64,000 nucleotides of DNA from Bizionia myxarmorum (GTDB lineage Bacteria; Bacteroidota; Bacteroidia; Flavobacteriales; Flavobacteriaceae): contig NZ_VSKK01000001.1 of the NCBI RefSeq assembly GCF_008086205.1, forward strand, positions 1,240,001 through 1,304,000. Direction: 5' to 3'. Shown here in pieces: positions 23,844 through 29,682 of the stretch. Below the pieces are notes generated by a model that saw nothing but the letters and a program-made list of their open reading frames with translations, had not been told where the DNA came from and made no database searches. Both the position numbers and the translations under genes were made by a program. The stretch's first letter is position 1. Each line of letters opens with the position of its first letter.

Positions 23844-24287
23844 TTACGTGTGAAGATCAAGCAACTCTATTTTAAAATTAAATAACGCCGTGCAATCCAT
23901 AACATCTTTTACGCCGTCCAATTTGCAAAGTTGTATAACCACACTGCATAAACCATGGAATAGGCTATTATTATCTAGTATTTCTGGTTTAAGTAGTCTG
24001 TTATTTTTAGTGATTTTGTAACCACAGCCTATCAAAAAAGATCTTTCAATCTGTAATAATTCTAAGGGTGAATAGCCATTAAATCGTCTGCCCAATCTTT
24101 GATGAAGTGAACCCAAATAATTTAATTTCTCGGTACCATGATTGTCGGTTAGGTGTTTCCACAAATCATTGTTATCTACAATATTACCAACAGCACATTG
24201 TTTGCAGTCTTCAGGGTTTAAGGTGTTATTATGAAACGCCGAATATAATTTTTCAATAGATTGATTAAAACGAAACGAATTTTTCAT
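23844..24287 (-). CDS. Conserved flavobacterial protein of unknown function, Cys-containing
   Basis: 147 aa, no signal peptide or membrane segment. C28 and C31 form a CxxC (EDCKQCAVGN); further cysteines lie in IGCGY, GLCSVV and MDCTA. I recall similar proteins being labelled as NQR subunit F in some genomes, apparently from proximity; nothing here looks like a ferredoxin or flavin domain. It is divergent from the 125-aa gene and apbE, which serve NQR, so a link to redox-centre biogenesis is conceivable but unproven. Confidence 0.75.
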   Translation of the reverse strand: MKNSFRFNQSIEKLYSAFHNNTLNPEDCKQCAVGNIVDNNDLWKHLTDNHGTEKLNYLGSLHQRLGRRFNGYSPLELLQIERSFLIGCGYKITKNNRLLKPEILDNNSLFHGLCSVVIQLCKLDGVKDVMDCTALFNFKIELLDLHT

Positions 24288-24362
24288 AGTTCTACGTTTT
24301 TTTAGTTTGCGTCAGTAAAAGTTACAAAAAAATATTTTATTTTTTAAGTATAGGTAACCTAA

Positions 24363-24394
24363 TTGGTTAGGACTCCAATAAATTAGTAATTTTG
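24363..24394 (+). promoter_or_regulatory. Promoter of the 125-aa protein-apbE operon
   Basis: TTG at 24363-24365, 21-base spacer, TAATTTTG at 24387-24394: a complete TTG-N(17-23)-TAnnTTTG match. The ATG begins only 4 bases after the -7 box, so the transcript would be nearly leaderless. Confidence 0.7.
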
Positions 24395-24398
24395 CAAG

Positions 24399-24776
24399 AT
24401 GAAAAAAGCACTTACAGAACAGGAACGCCATAATTTGGCTATGAACCATGTGGGTAAAGATTTAGAGTCACGTGGATTTGAATTTGTAGCTATTAATAGC
24501 AAACTAAAAAAGCATCCGCAATTTGTTTGCATCGACAAGAATAGTCAGTATTTCTTTGTGATTGTGCGGGCTGTTCTATTGCCAGATAATCCCAATAATT
24601 ATGATATAGTTTGGATGGAAACCTTTAAAGATCATGCTCGTGAAAAAGATGCTAAAGTTCTTTACGCCGGCGTAGGACTTGGAAATCCAGACAGCGAAGA
24701 TTTGCCTATATATTTAAATGAAGAATATCTAATTGAATATAACGGTATTCAAGTTATTGAAAATAATTTAAATTAA
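24399..24776 (+). CDS. Small conserved protein upstream of apbE
   Basis: 125-aa soluble protein of mixed alpha/beta character without recognised catalytic motifs. Notable segments: LTEQERHNLAMNHVGKDLES, FVCIDKNSQYFFVIVRAV, AGVGLGNPDSEDLPI. It starts 4 bases after a promoter -7 box and ends 3 bases before apbE, so it shares an operon with the NQR flavin transferase. In Bacteroidota small proteins like this often sit between nqr genes and apbE; I infer an accessory role in NQR maturation, without direct evidence. Confidence 0.85.
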   Translation: MKKALTEQERHNLAMNHVGKDLESRGFEFVAINSKLKKHPQFVCIDKNSQYFFVIVRAVLLPDNPNNYDIVWMETFKDHAREKDAKVLYAGVGLGNPDSEDLPIYLNEEYLIEYNGIQVIENNLN

Positions 24777-24779
24777 GTT

Positions 24780-25835
24780 ATGACACAGAGATTCACAGAG
24801 GAAACGCAAAGATTCACGGAGTTATTTTTAAAGAGTAACCATGATTCTAATCTCTCCTTGAGCGTTGCAAAGACCTTGTGCGTTTTTTTAATATTCATTT
24901 CTTTTTCTTGTAAAAAAGAACCAACAAACACCAAATTATCAGGGTCTGTTTTTGGAACGTCTTATTCAGTAATTTATGATTCTGATGTAAATTATGAAAA
25001 GCAATTTGACAGCCTTTTTGCTATAGTCAATAAATCCATGTCTACATATATTCCTGATTCTGATATTTCGAAATTAAATAGAAATGAACCTGTAACTGTT
25101 GATTCACACTTTTTACATGTTTTTAATGCATCTAACGAAATTTACCAAGCTACAGAAGGCGCTTTCGATCCTACTATTGGCGCTATTGTAAATGCTTGGG
25201 ATTTTGGTCCTGAAGGAAAAATAATTGCATTAGATAGCGTGAAAATTGATAGTCTTATGGAAGGCGTTGGTTTTAACAAGGTTTCTGTTCAAAACAACCA
25301 GATTATTAAACCAGAAATTACCTTTATAGATTTTAATGCCATAGCAAAAGGATATGGCGTGGATGTTATTGCTGTATTCTTGGAGTCAAAAAACATTAAA
25401 AACTATTTGGTTGAAATAGGAGGCGAAATTCGCACGCGTGGTAAAAATAAAGAAAAACAAAGCGACTGGAAAGTAGGCGTAGAGCTACCCAATTTTGATG
25501 GTGAACAAATTATATTAAATGCCATCAGCTTACATAATGAAGCCATGGCCACATCTGGAACGTATCGAAAATTTAAAGTGGATGAAAATGGCAACCGCTA
25601 TTCACATATTATTGATGCTAAAACGGGTTATCCGAGCAAAACAAATTTATTGAGTATTTCTGTATTAGCCAAAGATTGTATGTCGGCTGATGCTTATGCA
25701 ACGGCTTTTAAAGCTATGGGATTGGAAACTACGAAGTCATTTTTAAAAACACATACCGATTTAAAAGTGTTTTTGATTTATGAGAATGATGCAAAAGAAT
25801 TTGAAACGTTATCTATTAATGGTTTTCCAGAATAA
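24780..25835 (+). CDS. apbE: FAD:protein FMN transferase ApbE
   Basis: Attaches FMN from FAD to threonines of NqrB and NqrC; exported lipoprotein in this group (351 aa). Motifs: VFGTSYSVIY, MSTYIPDSDISKLN, EGAFDPTIGAIVNAW, IDFNAIAKGYGVD, VEIGGEIRTRGKN and SADAYATAFKAMG. The lipobox is FSC (FLIFISFSCKKE), but about 32 residues precede the hydrophobic core, far more than usual. Those residues (MTQRFTEETQRFTEL...) are encoded by a dispersed ACACAGAG/CACGGAG-type repeat. No other ATG lies between, so the repeat appears to supply the start codon. Confidence 0.93.
   Translation: MTQRFTEETQRFTELFLKSNHDSNLSLSVAKTLCVFLIFISFSCKKEPTNTKLSGSVFGTSYSVIYDSDVNYEKQFDSLFAIVNKSMSTYIPDSDISKLNRNEPVTVDSHFLHVFNASNEIYQATEGAFDPTIGAIVNAWDFGPEGKIIALDSVKIDSLMEGVGFNKVSVQNNQIIKPEITFIDFNAIAKGYGVDVIAVFLESKNIKNYLVEIGGEIRTRGKNKEKQSDWKVGVELPNFDGEQIILNAISLHNEAMATSGTYRKFKVDENGNRYSHIIDAKTGYPSKTNLLSISVLAKDCMSADAYATAFKAMGLETTKSFLKTHTDLKVFLIYENDAKEFETLSINGFPE
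24781..24886. repeat. Degenerate dispersed repeat overlapping the apbE start
   Basis: The left part reads ACACAGAGATTCACAGAG, then AAACGCAAAG and TTCACGGAG; the right part (24853-24886) has GCAAAGACCTTGTGCGTTTT in roughly inverted orientation. This vocabulary (ACACAGAG, CACGGAG, GCAAAG) is familiar from Bacteroidota intergenic repeats and relates to the inverted repeats at 26978 and 27437. Boundaries are approximate. Confidence 0.5.
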
Positions 25836-25838
25836 TAT

Positions 25839-26207
25839 CTAAAATGCGTTTATTAAAAGTAACAACCAACCAATAACCAGAAGCAAACCGCCAATAGGCG
25901 TTATCGGCCCTAAAAACCGCAGTTTCTTTCCTCTTGAATCCGATAAAACAAGTCCGTAAATACTAAATGAAAATAGTAGAATTCCTATTGTGAAACACCA
26001 ATAGATTGCTGGTGATAGATTTGTGTAGTTAAAGCCTAAAACTAATAAAACAATGGCATGATACATTTGGTATTTTACCCCCACTTCAAAACTCTGTAAT
26101 TGTTCTGCAGATAAAGTTTTCTTTAAAGCATGCGCACCAAAAGCGCCAAAAATTACAGATAACATTCCGAAAAGTGCAGCTGTTGCAATTATAATATCTT
26201 GTGTCAT
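25839..26207 (-). CDS. DUF423 family membrane protein
   Basis: 122-aa protein with four predicted membrane helices. The family signature GMLSVIFGAFGAHALKKTLS is at the N-terminus, and VKYQMYHAIVLLVLG, FSFSIYGLVLS and LGPITPIGGLLLVIGWL follow. Function of the family is unknown. It lies 7 bases after the methyltransferase stop, so it probably ends the map-(GxxExxY)-methyltransferase transcript; the stop is 3 bases from the convergent apbE stop. Confidence 0.92.
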   Translation of the reverse strand: MTQDIIIATAALFGMLSVIFGAFGAHALKKTLSAEQLQSFEVGVKYQMYHAIVLLVLGFNYTNLSPAIYWCFTIGILLFSFSIYGLVLSDSRGKKLRFLGPITPIGGLLLVIGWLLLLINAF

Positions 26208-26214
26208 ATTATTT

Positions 26215-26994
26215 TTAGATCTTATAAACTACGGGAATAATTTCACCTTTAGCTAAACAATATTTTTCAACGTCTGCTTCTGAAAGCTTCTTTGTATAAT
26301 CAACTTCTTCAACCGTGAATCCAATACTTCGGAGTTTATCAAAAAAATCACGACCATAAATCCGAACATGATCATATTGTCCAAAAATGGCAGCCCGTTC
26401 TTTTCTATCGGTTATGCTATTGTCTTCAAAAGTTTTTTCTCGTGATACATCTTGCGGAATTTGAAATATGCCATATCCATCTGGTTTCATAACCCGATAT
26501 AATTCTTTCATGGCCTTCGTATCATCAGGAATATGCTCAAATACATGATTGCATAAAATAATATCATAGCTATTATCTTCAAATGGAAGTTGGCAAATAT
26601 CCGCTTTAACATCAGCAATTGGCGACTCTAAATCGGTGGTGGTATAGTTGAGGTTTTTAAGTTTCCTGAAACGCTTTAAAAAACATTGTTCTGGCGCAAA
26701 ATGAAGCACTTTCTTTTCTTTAGTAAAAAATTCCGTTTCATTCTTTAAGTACAACCAAAGCAAACGATGTCGTTCTAAAGATAGGGTAGAAGGTGATAAC
26801 ACATTGTTCCGCTGGTTGCCATAACCATAAGGTAAAAAGGATTTAAAACTTTTTCCATCAATAGGATCTGTAAAGGTATCACCTTTCATGAAAATAGCCA
26901 AAACAGGACGTGCAACGTAGCTTAACCTAATTAGAATTGGTCTTGGAACGGTGTTTAGGATTTTTTTGAATAGTTTTTTAGACACAGATTTCAC
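26215..26994 (-). CDS. Class I SAM-dependent methyltransferase, GTG start inside a repeat
   Basis: About 259 aa. The methyltransferase core begins near residue 95 with VLHFAPEQCF, then TTDLESPIADVKADICQLPF, DIILCNHVFEHI and LYRVMKPDGYGIFQIPQ, the order of SAM motifs I-III. Substrate unknown. There is no ATG in the N-terminal region; the possible starts are GTG at 26994 or GTG at 26985, and both lie within the terminal inverted repeat of the adjacent GxxExxY element. The original start thus seems to have been replaced or borrowed from the repeat. Confidence 0.85.
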   Translation of the reverse strand: MKSVSKKLFKKILNTVPRPILIRLSYVARPVLAIFMKGDTFTDPIDGKSFKSFLPYGYGNQRNNVLSPSTLSLERHRLLWLYLKNETEFFTKEKKVLHFAPEQCFLKRFRKLKNLNYTTTDLESPIADVKADICQLPFEDNSYDIILCNHVFEHIPDDTKAMKELYRVMKPDGYGIFQIPQDVSREKTFEDNSITDRKERAAIFGQYDHVRIYGRDFFDKLRSIGFTVEEVDYTKKLSEADVEKYCLAKGEIIPVVYKI

Positions 26995-27008
26995 AGATTT
27001 GCACGGAT
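26978..27008. repeat. Left terminal inverted repeat of the GxxExxY element
   Basis: Pairs with 27437-27467 (three mismatches). It includes both candidate GTG starts of the methyltransferase; the stop codon of the GxxExxY gene overlaps its inner edge. Confidence 0.75.
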
Positions 27009-27382
27009 TAAAGGATTACTCTTTTAGTTTTTAAGCTATCCTCTCCGAAATTAATTAGTAGTCCTAATTTTAATTTTGAAACAGCTAGGTAATTTAGCGT
27101 TTGTTTAATGTACGCGTCCGTTAGTGAGCTTATAGCCTTTATTTCTAATACGATTTTGCTATCAATAGCAAAATCAGCTTTGTATTTATGAGGTAATAAG
27201 TTTCCTTTATATGTAATATCATAAATAGTTTCTCTTGAGTAATTTATATTATTATCTATAAACTCTATTTCTAATGCATCTCCATAAACAATTTCGTTAA
27301 ATCCTTTTCCCAATTCATTATGAACAGTCATGCATAAACCTATTATTTTATAAGTGTCTTCATTATAAAGTAATTGTCCCAT
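27008..27382 (-). CDS. GxxExxY protein (PD-(D/E)XK nuclease-like)
   Basis: 124 aa. The family motif is GFNEIVY (residues 27-33), preceded by the helix IIGLCMTVHNELGKG. ADFAIDSKIVLEIKAI gives the D-x(n)-E-x-K pattern of the PD-(D/E)XK nuclease fold, and Pfam places the family in that superfamily. The biological role of the family is not established. The ATG start is inside the element, and the stop codon touches the left inverted repeat. Same strand as map and the methyltransferase, so it is probably co-transcribed. Confidence 0.9.
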   Translation of the reverse strand: MGQLLYNEDTYKIIGLCMTVHNELGKGFNEIVYGDALEIEFIDNNINYSRETIYDITYKGNLLPHKYKADFAIDSKIVLEIKAISSLTDAYIKQTLNYLAVSKLKLGLLINFGEDSLKTKRVIL

Positions 27383-27436
27383 AATATTTTAGCTAATTAT
27401 ATATTGTAAATCCGTGATATTAATTTAGACGTTTCC

Positions 27437-27467
27437 ATCCGTGTTAATCCGTGAAATCTGTGTCTAA
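27437..27467. repeat. Right terminal inverted repeat of the GxxExxY element
   Basis: Inverted copy of 26978-27008. A partial extra copy (AATCCGTGATA, 27409-27419) lies just inside it. Its outer edge is 2 bases from the map stop codon. Confidence 0.75.
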
Positions 27468-27469
27468 TT

Positions 27470-28288
27470 TTATAATATAATCGCCTCCTGTCTAAACTCA
27501 TCCTCCTCATTAGAAGAAATCCCTAGCGCCTCATAGATATAAGCAAATGTAGAAAGCAATTCTGGTTTGCCATCTAAAATAGCCACATCATGCTCAAAAT
27601 GTGCTGATGGTTTATTATCTAAAGTTGTAATGGTCCAACCATCACGATGCTGTTTAATTCTATGAGTTCCCATGTTTATCATAGGTTCAATAGCAACTAC
27701 TTGACCTTCTATAAACTTTTTACCGCGACCACGTTTTCCGTAGTTAGGCATTTCTGGATCTTCGTGCATTTTAGTGCCGAGTCCATGACCTACTAATTCA
27801 CGAACAACACCATAACCGCGGTCTTCACAATATTTCTGAATGGCAAATCCTACATCACCAACACGATTGCCAACTTTAAATTCACGAATCCCTTCGTATA
27901 ACGATTGTTTGGTAACCTCTAAAAGCGTTTGCGTTTCTGGCGCAATTTCGCCAACGGCAAAAGTATAAGCATGATCGCCATAATAGTTATTTTTTATGGC
28001 ACCACAATCAATAGAAATAATATCACCCTCTTGCAACGGTTCCTTGGTAGGGAATCCATGAACGACTTGCGAATTTGGACTCATGCAAAGCGTATTTGGG
28101 AAATCATATAACCCTAAAAACCCGGGAATAGCACCTTGTTCACGAATAAAATCTTCCGCTAATTTATCTAATTGTAAAGTGGTTACACCAGGCTTCACTT
28201 CTTTGGCTAACATGCCTAAAGTTTTTGAAACAATTATAGCACTTTCGCGCATTAATTCTATCTGTTCTCTTGTTTTAACTACTATCAT
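27470..28288 (-). CDS. map: Methionine aminopeptidase, type I
   Basis: Removes the initiator methionine from nascent proteins; di-metal cytosolic enzyme, 272 aa. Metal ligands can be placed: D in ISIDCGAIKNNYYGDHAYTF (two Asp), His in LVGHGLGTKMHEDPEMPNY, Glu in VAIEPMINMG, and Glu in AHFEHDVAI. PNSQVVHGFPT carries the catalytic His. A TAnnTTTG box lies 17 bases upstream of the start. Probably first gene of a map-methyltransferase-DUF423 operon later interrupted by the GxxExxY element. Confidence 0.96.
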   Translation of the reverse strand: MIVVKTREQIELMRESAIIVSKTLGMLAKEVKPGVTTLQLDKLAEDFIREQGAIPGFLGLYDFPNTLCMSPNSQVVHGFPTKEPLQEGDIISIDCGAIKNNYYGDHAYTFAVGEIAPETQTLLEVTKQSLYEGIREFKVGNRVGDVGFAIQKYCEDRGYGVVRELVGHGLGTKMHEDPEMPNYGKRGRGKKFIEGQVVAIEPMINMGTHRIKQHRDGWTITTLDNKPSAHFEHDVAILDGKPELLSTFAYIYEALGISSNEEDEFRQEAIIL

Positions 28289-28305
28289 AAATTCAAAAAT
28301 ATGGG

Positions 28306-28313
28306 CAAAGATA
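28306..28313 (-). promoter_or_regulatory. Likely -7 promoter box for map
   Basis: Minus strand TATCTTTG matches TAnnTTTG, 17 bases before the ATG. No clear -33 TTG. Confidence 0.45.
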
Positions 28314-28410
28314 CTGAATTTTGATCACCTAGGTAATCTTTAGCTTATATGACTTTTGATAGGTTTTTATTGATTCTTTTTTAGCAACTTTGCCTTATAA
28401 AATTTATTCT

Positions 28411-29682
28411 ATGTATAAGTCAGTGACAGCTGAAGAAGCTGTAAAAATTGTTAAATCCAATAGTAAAATATATATTCAAGCAGCAGCTGCCGCACCGCAA
28501 TTGCTTATTCGTGCTTTATCTGCTCGATACGAGGAATTGCATGGTGTTGAAATTTGCCATTTACATACGGAAGGTGAAGCGCCCTATGCCAACCCAGAAT
28601 ATCGTGATAGTTTTCACGTGAATTCTTTTTTTATAGGTAAGAACGTGCGCCATACCTTGAAAGCAGGTAATGGTTCCTACACACCTGTTTTTTTAAGCGA
28701 ATTGCCGTTGCTTTTTAAACGAAATATCATCGATTTACAATATGCCTTTATTCATGTTTCGCCACCAGATAAACATGGTTATTATTCTTTAGGTGTTTCG
28801 GTGGAAGCAACTTTAGCAGCCATTGATAATGCAGATTATGTAATTGCACAAGTAAACAAGCAAATGCCAAGAACACATGGCGCAGGCATTATTCACCAGT
28901 CTGAAATTAATATTTTTGTGGAATGTGATGAGCCTTTGCCAACACATGATATGGCAGAACCTTCAGAAATTGAAAATAAAATTGGTGTTCACGTAGCGGG
29001 TTTAATCGAAGATAAAAGTACGCTTCAATTGGGAATTGGAAGTATTCCAAATGCTGTTTTAGCGCGTTTAACGCACCATAAAGATTTAGGTTTACATACG
29101 GAGATGTTTTCTGATGGTGTAATCGATTTAATAAAAAATAATGTCATCAACGGAAACTATAAAGGCATCAATCGTGGTCGTGCTTTAACCACTTTTTTAG
29201 TGGGTTCCAAAAGACTTTATGATTATGTAGATGATAATCCTTTTGTAGAAATGCGCGCATCTAATTACACAAATGATGTGTCAATAATTAAACAAAATCC
29301 ACGAATGGTAGCCATAAACTCCGCTATTGAAGTGGATGTTACTGGGCAAGTTTGTGCAGATTCTATTGGAGCACACATGTATTCTGGTGTGGGTGGACAA
29401 ATGGATTTTATCCGAGGCGCTTCCTTAAGTGAAGGTGGAAAAGCTATTATTGCCTTGCCATCTGTTACTAAAACAGGAATCAGTCGTATTGTACCTAATT
29501 TAAAACCTGGTGCTGGCGTTGTTACCACGAGAGCACATGTTCATTATGTGGTTACGGAATTTGGAATTGCCAATTTATATGGTAAAACTATTGATCAACG
29601 TGTGAAAGCATTGGTTAATATTGCACATCCAGATCACCAAGAATCTATTGATAAAAGTTATTTTAAATTAATTAGAAGTTAG
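28411..29682 (+). CDS. Acetyl-CoA hydrolase/transferase family CoA-transferase
   Basis: 423-aa class I CoA-transferase related to 4-hydroxybutyrate and acetate/succinate CoA-transferases. The catalytic glutamate is in LHTEMFSDGVIDL, forming the acyl-glutamyl-CoA intermediate in the family. The CoA/oxyanion segments QLGIGSIPNAV and YSGVGGQMDFIRGA and the C-terminal VVTEFGIANLYGKTI are conserved. The ATG at 28411 (MYKSVTAEEAV) is chosen; the longer reading would begin with TTG inside a promoter-like CAACTTTG. The natural acyl substrate cannot be told from sequence. Confidence 0.9.
   Translation: MYKSVTAEEAVKIVKSNSKIYIQAAAAAPQLLIRALSARYEELHGVEICHLHTEGEAPYANPEYRDSFHVNSFFIGKNVRHTLKAGNGSYTPVFLSELPLLFKRNIIDLQYAFIHVSPPDKHGYYSLGVSVEATLAAIDNADYVIAQVNKQMPRTHGAGIIHQSEINIFVECDEPLPTHDMAEPSEIENKIGVHVAGLIEDKSTLQLGIGSIPNAVLARLTHHKDLGLHTEMFSDGVIDLIKNNVINGNYKGINRGRALTTFLVGSKRLYDYVDDNPFVEMRASNYTNDVSIIKQNPRMVAINSAIEVDVTGQVCADSIGAHMYSGVGGQMDFIRGASLSEGGKAIIALPSVTKTGISRIVPNLKPGAGVVTTRAHVHYVVTEFGIANLYGKTIDQRVKALVNIAHPDHQESIDKSYFKLIRS

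Follow-up and report, generated by a model that had tools for sequence, protein, structure and literature searches.

Free-standing homing endonuclease genes, of the HNH/NUMOD4 and PD-(D/E)XK types, are lone nuclease genes that occupy shared sites and undergo gain and loss; to our knowledge, the known ones are not defined by cognate inverted ends. The 23S rRNA intervening sequences (IVS) are described as sub-kilobase inserts that have inverted ends and short tandem repeats and contain a single small ORF and no transposase, all of which they share with the element reported here, the IVS of Coxiella having a 28-bp stem and tandem heptamers around a four-helix-bundle gene (PMC4990558). The locus under study lies in a window, i.e. 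the whole stretch of 64 kb that was analysed, from Bizionia myxarmorum. Judging from sequence comparisons, we consider it probable (roughly 60%) that positions 26978-27467 are a ~490-bp mobile mini-element composed of a stand-alone Cas4/RecB-like PD-(D/E)XK nuclease gene and its cognate inverted ends, which would spread in a homing-like manner by break and repair.

This segment fills the gap between map and a methyltransferase gene (Table 1), and the only gene inside it is a GxxExxY gene. As a preliminary description of this DNA had claimed, that gene alone is enclosed by inverted arms of 31 nt each that match at 28 of 31 bases. The arms are separated by 428 nt, and each is built from three ~9-10 bp units. 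The tight fit noted at the time is equally plain, the end of the map ORF lying two bases from the nearer arm and the GTG start codon of the methyltransferase ORF falling within the other one. With up to three mismatches allowed, the pattern CACAGATTTCACAGATT has three matches in the window, two of which are the arms (100 shuffles: mean 0.34, maximum 2), and the pattern TCACGGATTAACACGGAT has two, both in the arms (0.01 expected). The TTTT duplication suspected on both sides, in contrast, fell away: the bases just outside the arms are A/T-rich, and in 67 elements bearing ends of the window type, direct repeats of more than 3 bp did not rise above shuffles, direct matches of 3 bp being found beside the ends of 11 of the 67 vs 5.1 in shuffles (shuffle maximum 10). 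The window's assembly as a whole holds one GxxExxY gene and eight window-type ends, two at the locus and six elsewhere. We note that a gap elsewhere in this genome (L022, 1-2400, G000:C10), devoid of any GxxExxY gene, carries several CACGGATT arrays, one of which extends over the start of a hypothetical ORF (MKSVSKK..). Within the window itself, the solitary array of the second clade's end type perhaps provides the start of the ApbE ORF (MTQRFTEETQRFTELF) in which it lies.

Table 1. Features of the element and its surroundings (window coordinates)
Feature	Position	Strand	Remarks
Inverted end downstream of GxxExxY gene	26978..27008		three ~9-10 bp units, tip GACAC at 26981
Inverted end upstream of GxxExxY gene	27437..27467		tip at 27464; 28/31 bases identical to other arm
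GxxExxY gene	27008..27382	-	124 aa; predicted minimal Cas4/RecB-like PD-(D/E)XK nuclease; E30, D70, E80, K82, Q94, Y98
Degenerate additional end unit, just within upstream arm (direct repeat D7)	27405..27420		
map, type I methionyl aminopeptidase	27470..28288	-	upstream host gene at insertion junction
Methyltransferase gene	26215..26994	-	downstream host gene at junction
Second-clade end type (CACAGAGATTCACAGAG..), solitary four-unit array	24783..24823	+	within first codons of ApbE ORF

The 124-aa product is the only ORF of at least 60 aa within the element. It belongs to PF13366 PDDEXK_3 (E 3e-33) and TIGR04256 GxxExxY (E 6e-38; 129.7 bits against a curated cut-off of 35) and has the E..D..ExK motif. 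The nuclease pattern recognized earlier is well founded, E30, D70, E80 and K82 being conserved at 99-100% across 169 genes (98-100% with Q94 and Y98 included) and the fold matching Cas4/RecB-like proteins; the Q-Y pair resembles the motif known from RecB and Cas4. The best PDB matches of an AlphaFold model (pLDDT 95) are the chains of 4ic1 (SSO0001), which we take to be a Cas4 (E 5e-5, TM 0.53-0.61 by query); 3syy is matched with an E of 1e-4, and the other folds matched best are those of LHK-Exo, lambda exonuclease, RecE and AdnAB. Searches by sequence gave weak matches, at best E 0.08 in the PDB and E 0.034 in PHROGs. From the modelled fold, the protein is predicted to be a minimal Cas4/RecB-like PD-(D/E)XK nuclease and, since its catalytic residues are conserved over the 169 genes, enzymatic activity is probably maintained even as the ends drift. 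We discarded the ideas of a defence gene (PADLOC gave no match), of phage cargo (none of 50,697 phage records, and 35 candidates from an IMG/VR pattern scan of which none was confirmed) and of plasmid cargo (present in 8 of 72,556 plasmid records).

GxxExxY genes occur in 73 of 299 genomes of the family. In all, 179 loci were gathered from the same genus, from the family and from named genomes in several phyla, which supplied the best 80 among 529 relatives of the window's clade. From the family search hits, 30 loci, then 60 and 18 regions and 12 fragment regions were taken, with a few weak matches below the cut-off excluded. Of the 179, five loci without 80 model positions (L062, L140, L143, L227, L250) and nine duplicates were dropped and four loci had a second gene, which gives the 169 distinct genes. 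The upstream flank of each locus was aligned to the reverse complement of its downstream flank, with 886 shifted positions at the same loci as controls, and 167 loci entered the test, the short flanks of L148 and L152 leading to their exclusion. Inverted flanks scored above the 95th percentile of the controls at 123 of the 167 loci and above the 99th at 95 (median 115 at the loci vs 65 in the controls; window locus 128, 99th percentile of controls 109); about a quarter of the loci have no arms above the 95th percentile. The feared case of a gene that sits at the map site without inverted ends is not what the relatives present, 49 of 54 map-site loci exceeding the 95th and 39 the 99th percentile; for the loci elsewhere the figures are 74 and 56 of 113. 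Flanks paired across loci exceeded the 99th percentile of the shifted controls in 9.7% of cases, as expected where end types are common to loci. The package of gene plus ends is thus widespread across the family.

The make-up of the arms varies with the protein. Each arm is a run of ~9-10 bp units, with a sequence that tracks the protein clade: the window's clade has GACACnnATTTCACnnATTTTCACnnATT ends, the SAYQEC (second) clade CACAGAGATTCACAGAG, SVYEEI CGCAAAGGCGCAAAG, SVYEAV CCCGCAGATTTCGCAGA, VYQRA TGTCTGAACCTTGATT and part of the KDA clade GCCACGAATACACGAAT. Among 81 loci with arms away from the map site, the nearest arm came from the locus's own clade in a fraction of 0.63 vs 0.11 after shuffling, clades being set by sequence motifs and the window's clade by tree. 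One locus (L048) had a chance-level arm match in the clade comparison, yet its ends are readable in the junction sequence. The units of the window's clade are mostly CACnGATT or CACnAATT, a choice that tends to track the protein subclade, with exceptions. The variable dinucleotides of left and right arms agree more often than in shuffles, at 0.44 vs 0.21 in 30 loci that share history (0 of 5000 shuffles as high) and at 0.39 vs 0.21 in 24 map-site loci (6 of 5000), where the shared locus history calls for light weight.

Matched arms of this kind could also be kept for a role at the RNA level, like that of a 23S rRNA intervening sequence, the arms pairing in the operon transcript, RNase III removing the insert and the repeat being maintained for pairing. 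The anatomy is similar to that of the Coxiella IVS, with terminal inverted repeats forming the stem, a small ORF and tandem heptamers, as described in PMC4990558, and the genes on either side of the common sites identified run in one direction. If the hairpin mattered as RNA, wobble-compatible differences between arms should be in excess; the count of 112 sense-strand G-U-compatible differences vs 147 others departs in the opposite direction (p 0.03) and so does not support it. The ends, moreover, also exist as gene-less solitary units and doublets, and positions 24000-29000 of the window gave no Rfam match at gathering thresholds. We regard this explanation as improbable.

The map-methyltransferase junction itself has a varied history. 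It harbours 53 of the 169 genes, which come from two clades with different ends. In two genomes of the window's genus (G003, G004) the junction is bare, consisting of the map stop, two bases and the methyltransferase ATG; two others (G001, G002) carry an element there, and the genes of these have identical counterparts in Bizionia algoritergicola (L110) and B. argentinensis (L102). The search for complete copies and for empty junctions, proposed in the preliminary description, turned up both. We compared 77 junctions, of which 39 hold a window-type element, 14 one of the second clade and 9 something else (L041, L049 and L050 being assigned to this state by hand), and 15 are empty, meaning a gap of less than 160 bp (52 bp or less in 14 of the 15); since the 53 occupied by GxxExxY elements were largely found through the element, these frequencies are biased. 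Other occupants include cupin and DUF3050 genes and, in two other genera, an HNH gene resembling homing endonucleases (L043, NUMOD4 and HNH_3; L049, HNH_3). At four loci (L112, L113, L115, L241) the element cuts into the C-terminus of map. The terminal GTGTC of many window-type elements has its GTG right next to lysine codons of the methyltransferase, and from its position this GTG could serve as the methyltransferase start.

Such a distribution might go back to one or two ancient insertions at map that were inherited vertically with diverging ends and lost many times. Several close hosts do carry close genes (L112/L113, L125/L127, L093/L225, L096/L103 and four Polaribacter), and on a host tree of map plus methyltransferase (IQ-TREE) the four states, i.e. 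the two clades, empty and other, change 31 times vs 34.4 in shuffles (13 of 200 as low), a slight clustering. The two element clades, in contrast, are mixed on that tree, with 12 switches between them vs 12.6 in shuffles (85 of 200 as low); FastTree gave 13 switches vs 12.6 and 30 changes of the four states vs 34.5. An AU test rejects the grouping of all second-type hosts in one clade (p 5.9e-5). Hosts that are close and connected by starred branches have unlike states (L085/L103, L046/L242, L210/L091+L097, L067/L106, L076/L126), and the empty L032 and L033 are joined by such a branch to L034, whose junction state differs. The distances of map and methyltransferase correlate at 0.18 only, which left a gene-host rank correlation uninformative, and trees and AU tests took its place. 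On the gene tree, the window gene falls with Lacinutrix and Mariniflexile genes (L091, L092; support 87) apart from those of its congeners, a placement with the latter being marginally disfavoured (AU p 0.037, 124 columns); of the three AU tests on the gene tree, a second was also marginal (p 0.047) and L092+L100 was not rejected (p 0.072). By eye, remnants of replaced elements are visible as well: a left end resembling the window's that stands outside a different element in G002, a window-like right end in G001, right ends like those of the second clade ahead of the methyltransferase start in L091 and L107, and a window-type tip outside a second-clade element in L210. Such ancient insertion followed by vertical inheritance and losses is, in our view, very improbable; the junction is a re-used site whose occupant has changed many times among two element clades, nothing and other genes.

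Other clades have other junctions, as seen from flanking-gene clusters for each of which one example gene was identified. Seven of 18 KDA loci lie between tsaC-like and CCA-nucleotidyltransferase-like genes, six to seven of 12 SVYEEI loci between alaS and GSCFA genes, nine of 12 SVYEAV loci between ABC-transporter genes and all four EEA loci after a cysD cluster (cysN being identified downstream in L230), and the VYQRA clade has six of 25 loci after an hsdM-like cluster and six before an hsdS-like cluster, three of them in both groups. The flanking genes identified run in the direction of the element. Through shared flanking-gene clusters, each clade shows a conserved site of its own; common sites of this kind can owe something to vertical descent and, as the map site shows, to exchange as well. 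We note that an outlying member of the window's clade from Verrucomicrobia (L137) follows the same cysD-type gene as EEA, making this a second two-clade junction. The closest pair within a genome among the 169 genes is a tandem of two GxxExxY genes, 95% identical and each with SVYEAV-type ends, between ABC-transporter genes (L203, G247:C1), and no recent copy at a second site of the same genome was found among these genes. Across two genomes, L144 and L145 have genes 94.6% identical over 406 bp in unrelated flanks; L104 and L105, identical over 6,372 bases, are probably an assembly duplicate.

Ends without the gene are also on record. With two mismatches allowed, window-type ends were detected in 22 of 299 family genomes, at 1-50 per genome (50 in G275, 23 each in G112 and G184), and a reversed-pattern control gave none. 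By hand-compiled counts, they are present in 13 of 14 genomes with an intact or broken gene of the window's clade and in 9 of 285 in which none was found (Fisher p 3.6e-16); 12 further gene fragments that were checked included none of this clade (L330 had no match). Gene-less forms include, besides solitary ends, inverted doublets of 69-89 bp (L304-L306) and 83 bp (L308) and elements of 116-325 bp (L262, L266, L268, L269, L272, L280).

The ends might instead move in trans, by means of the transposase of an IS, a reverse transcriptase or the repair functions of the host, with the nuclease as a passenger or maintenance factor. The nine genomes in which no cognate gene was found, G275 and G112 with their many ends among them, fit this explanation, as do four-helix-bundle genes, which encode no nuclease and have ends of similar style. 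It sits poorly with an end sequence that tracks the nuclease clade and with ends that track the presence of the gene, and relic ends can outlive a lost gene: a congener of G112 (G318) retains a decayed gene of the window's clade. We deem mobilization in trans unlikely.

A few arrangements of ends deserve mention in their own right. Ends of several clades stand side by side or nested in single gaps (by eye; L300, L310, L312, L313, L316-L318), the mixed gaps L300, L312 and L316-L318 giving the impression that elements tend to insert next to one another. In L308 (G097:C1:131400-132900), a unit of ~212-220 bp with a window-type doublet and second-clade-like ends is repeated about five times in tandem. 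Decayed genes of the window's clade, one with a split frame and one with an internal deletion, adjoin window-type ends in L294 and L295. The six most alike gene-less copies of G275 (L261-L273) are contained in a larger composite whose outer inverted repeats are CAGCTACGGTGTAC/GTACACCGTAGCTG; L262 and L269 share part of this composite; the repeated gene-less family of this genome was accordingly dismissed as a case of clean transposition by GACAC ends, the family being the larger composite with other outer ends.

The empty junctions in genus and family, the occurrence of the same or clade-specific ends elsewhere, the scattered gene-less ends and the L144/L145 pair bear out the earlier suggestion of a mini mobile element. 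As to how a break-and-repair element might spread, the ~9-10 bp units would be the binding sites of the nuclease, which would cut at or near the tips in empty alleles, rival alleles and scattered ends. Repair of the double-strand break from an element-bearing copy would then install or replace the element, a homing-like or gene-conversion type of spread, while new sites and gene-less copies would arise from occasional ectopic repair. A model of cutting and repair copying would account for clade-matched ends, for the lack of target duplications longer than 3 bp and for replacements that leave one old end. A homing-like route is suggested by the shared clade-specific sites, the exchange of occupants with remnants and the HNH gene at the map junction in two genera; the role of the nuclease in moving the element is one that we infer. 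More tentatively, GxxExxY elements might form a class of their own among self-spreading DNA and count as some of the smallest mobile elements with one gene, in which a lone Cas4-like nuclease reads its own end units and each clade has its own end code and operon junction; a wider class with inverted ends of tandem units would include a four-helix-bundle (IVS/S23) branch.

In the literature searched by GxxExxY/TIGR04256, PF13366 and related topics, we found no published description of GxxExxY mini-elements and no described function of GxxExxY; in the portions accessible, the family is mentioned in passing as a CRISPR-RT neighbour (PMC8934634) and also named in PMC12085832. The element is apparently of an undescribed kind. 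If GxxExxY is recognized as the gene of a mobile mini-element, the end code that can be read for each clade might account for numerous repeats between genes and for certain unusual N-terminal leader peptides of annotated genes. The element also lends itself to studying how break and repair could allow a single PD-(D/E)XK nuclease to spread. It also reopens the question of how IVS/four-helix-bundle elements move and, more speculatively, points to a possible source of domesticated Cas4-like nucleases.

Set against known systems, the element shares with Cas4/RecB-family nucleases the fold and the conserved E..D..ExK..Q-Y residues, and departs from them in its size (124 aa vs 202-206 aa for the 4ic1 chains), its own inverted ends and the absence of a PADLOC match. 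Like insertion sequences and MITEs, it has inverted ends and gene-less derivatives; unlike them, it has neither a transposase or recombinase gene nor target duplications longer than 3 bp. From the 23S rRNA IVS with their S23/four-helix-bundle ORF it differs in its protein, in its position between protein genes and in the lack of any sign of selection for RNA pairing. Four-helix-bundle genes of TIGR02436 were found in 145 of 199 family genomes searched, and many of the loci taken (L171-L200) have the gene enclosed by runs of 7-9 bp units in inverted orientation (GGTTGTT, AGTTCTT, AGATTGCT); of the 25 loci analysed out of 30, 13 scored above 99 in the flank test (99th percentile of 100 shifted controls, 94) and seven above 116, the cross-locus 99th percentile. 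With REPIN/RAYT systems the element has in common a single gene flanked by end repeats, gene-less copies that include short inverted doublets and an end type that tracks the enzyme clade; it differs in that its enzyme is a PD-(D/E)XK nuclease and its ends are runs of ~9-10 bp units. The ends are also fewer, at 1-50 in the 22 genomes with a match, whereas REPs often exceed 100 according to the accessible part of PMC2817692. Profile and structure searches found no gene in the element for a tyrosine (Y1) transposase, the hallmark enzyme by which REPIN/RAYT systems are defined. With free-standing homing genes it shares a lone nuclease gene, common sites and gain and loss, an HNH gene occupying the very same junction in L043 and L049. 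The GxxExxY element lacks the enzyme of a REPIN/RAYT system and would work like a cross between such a system and a homing gene.
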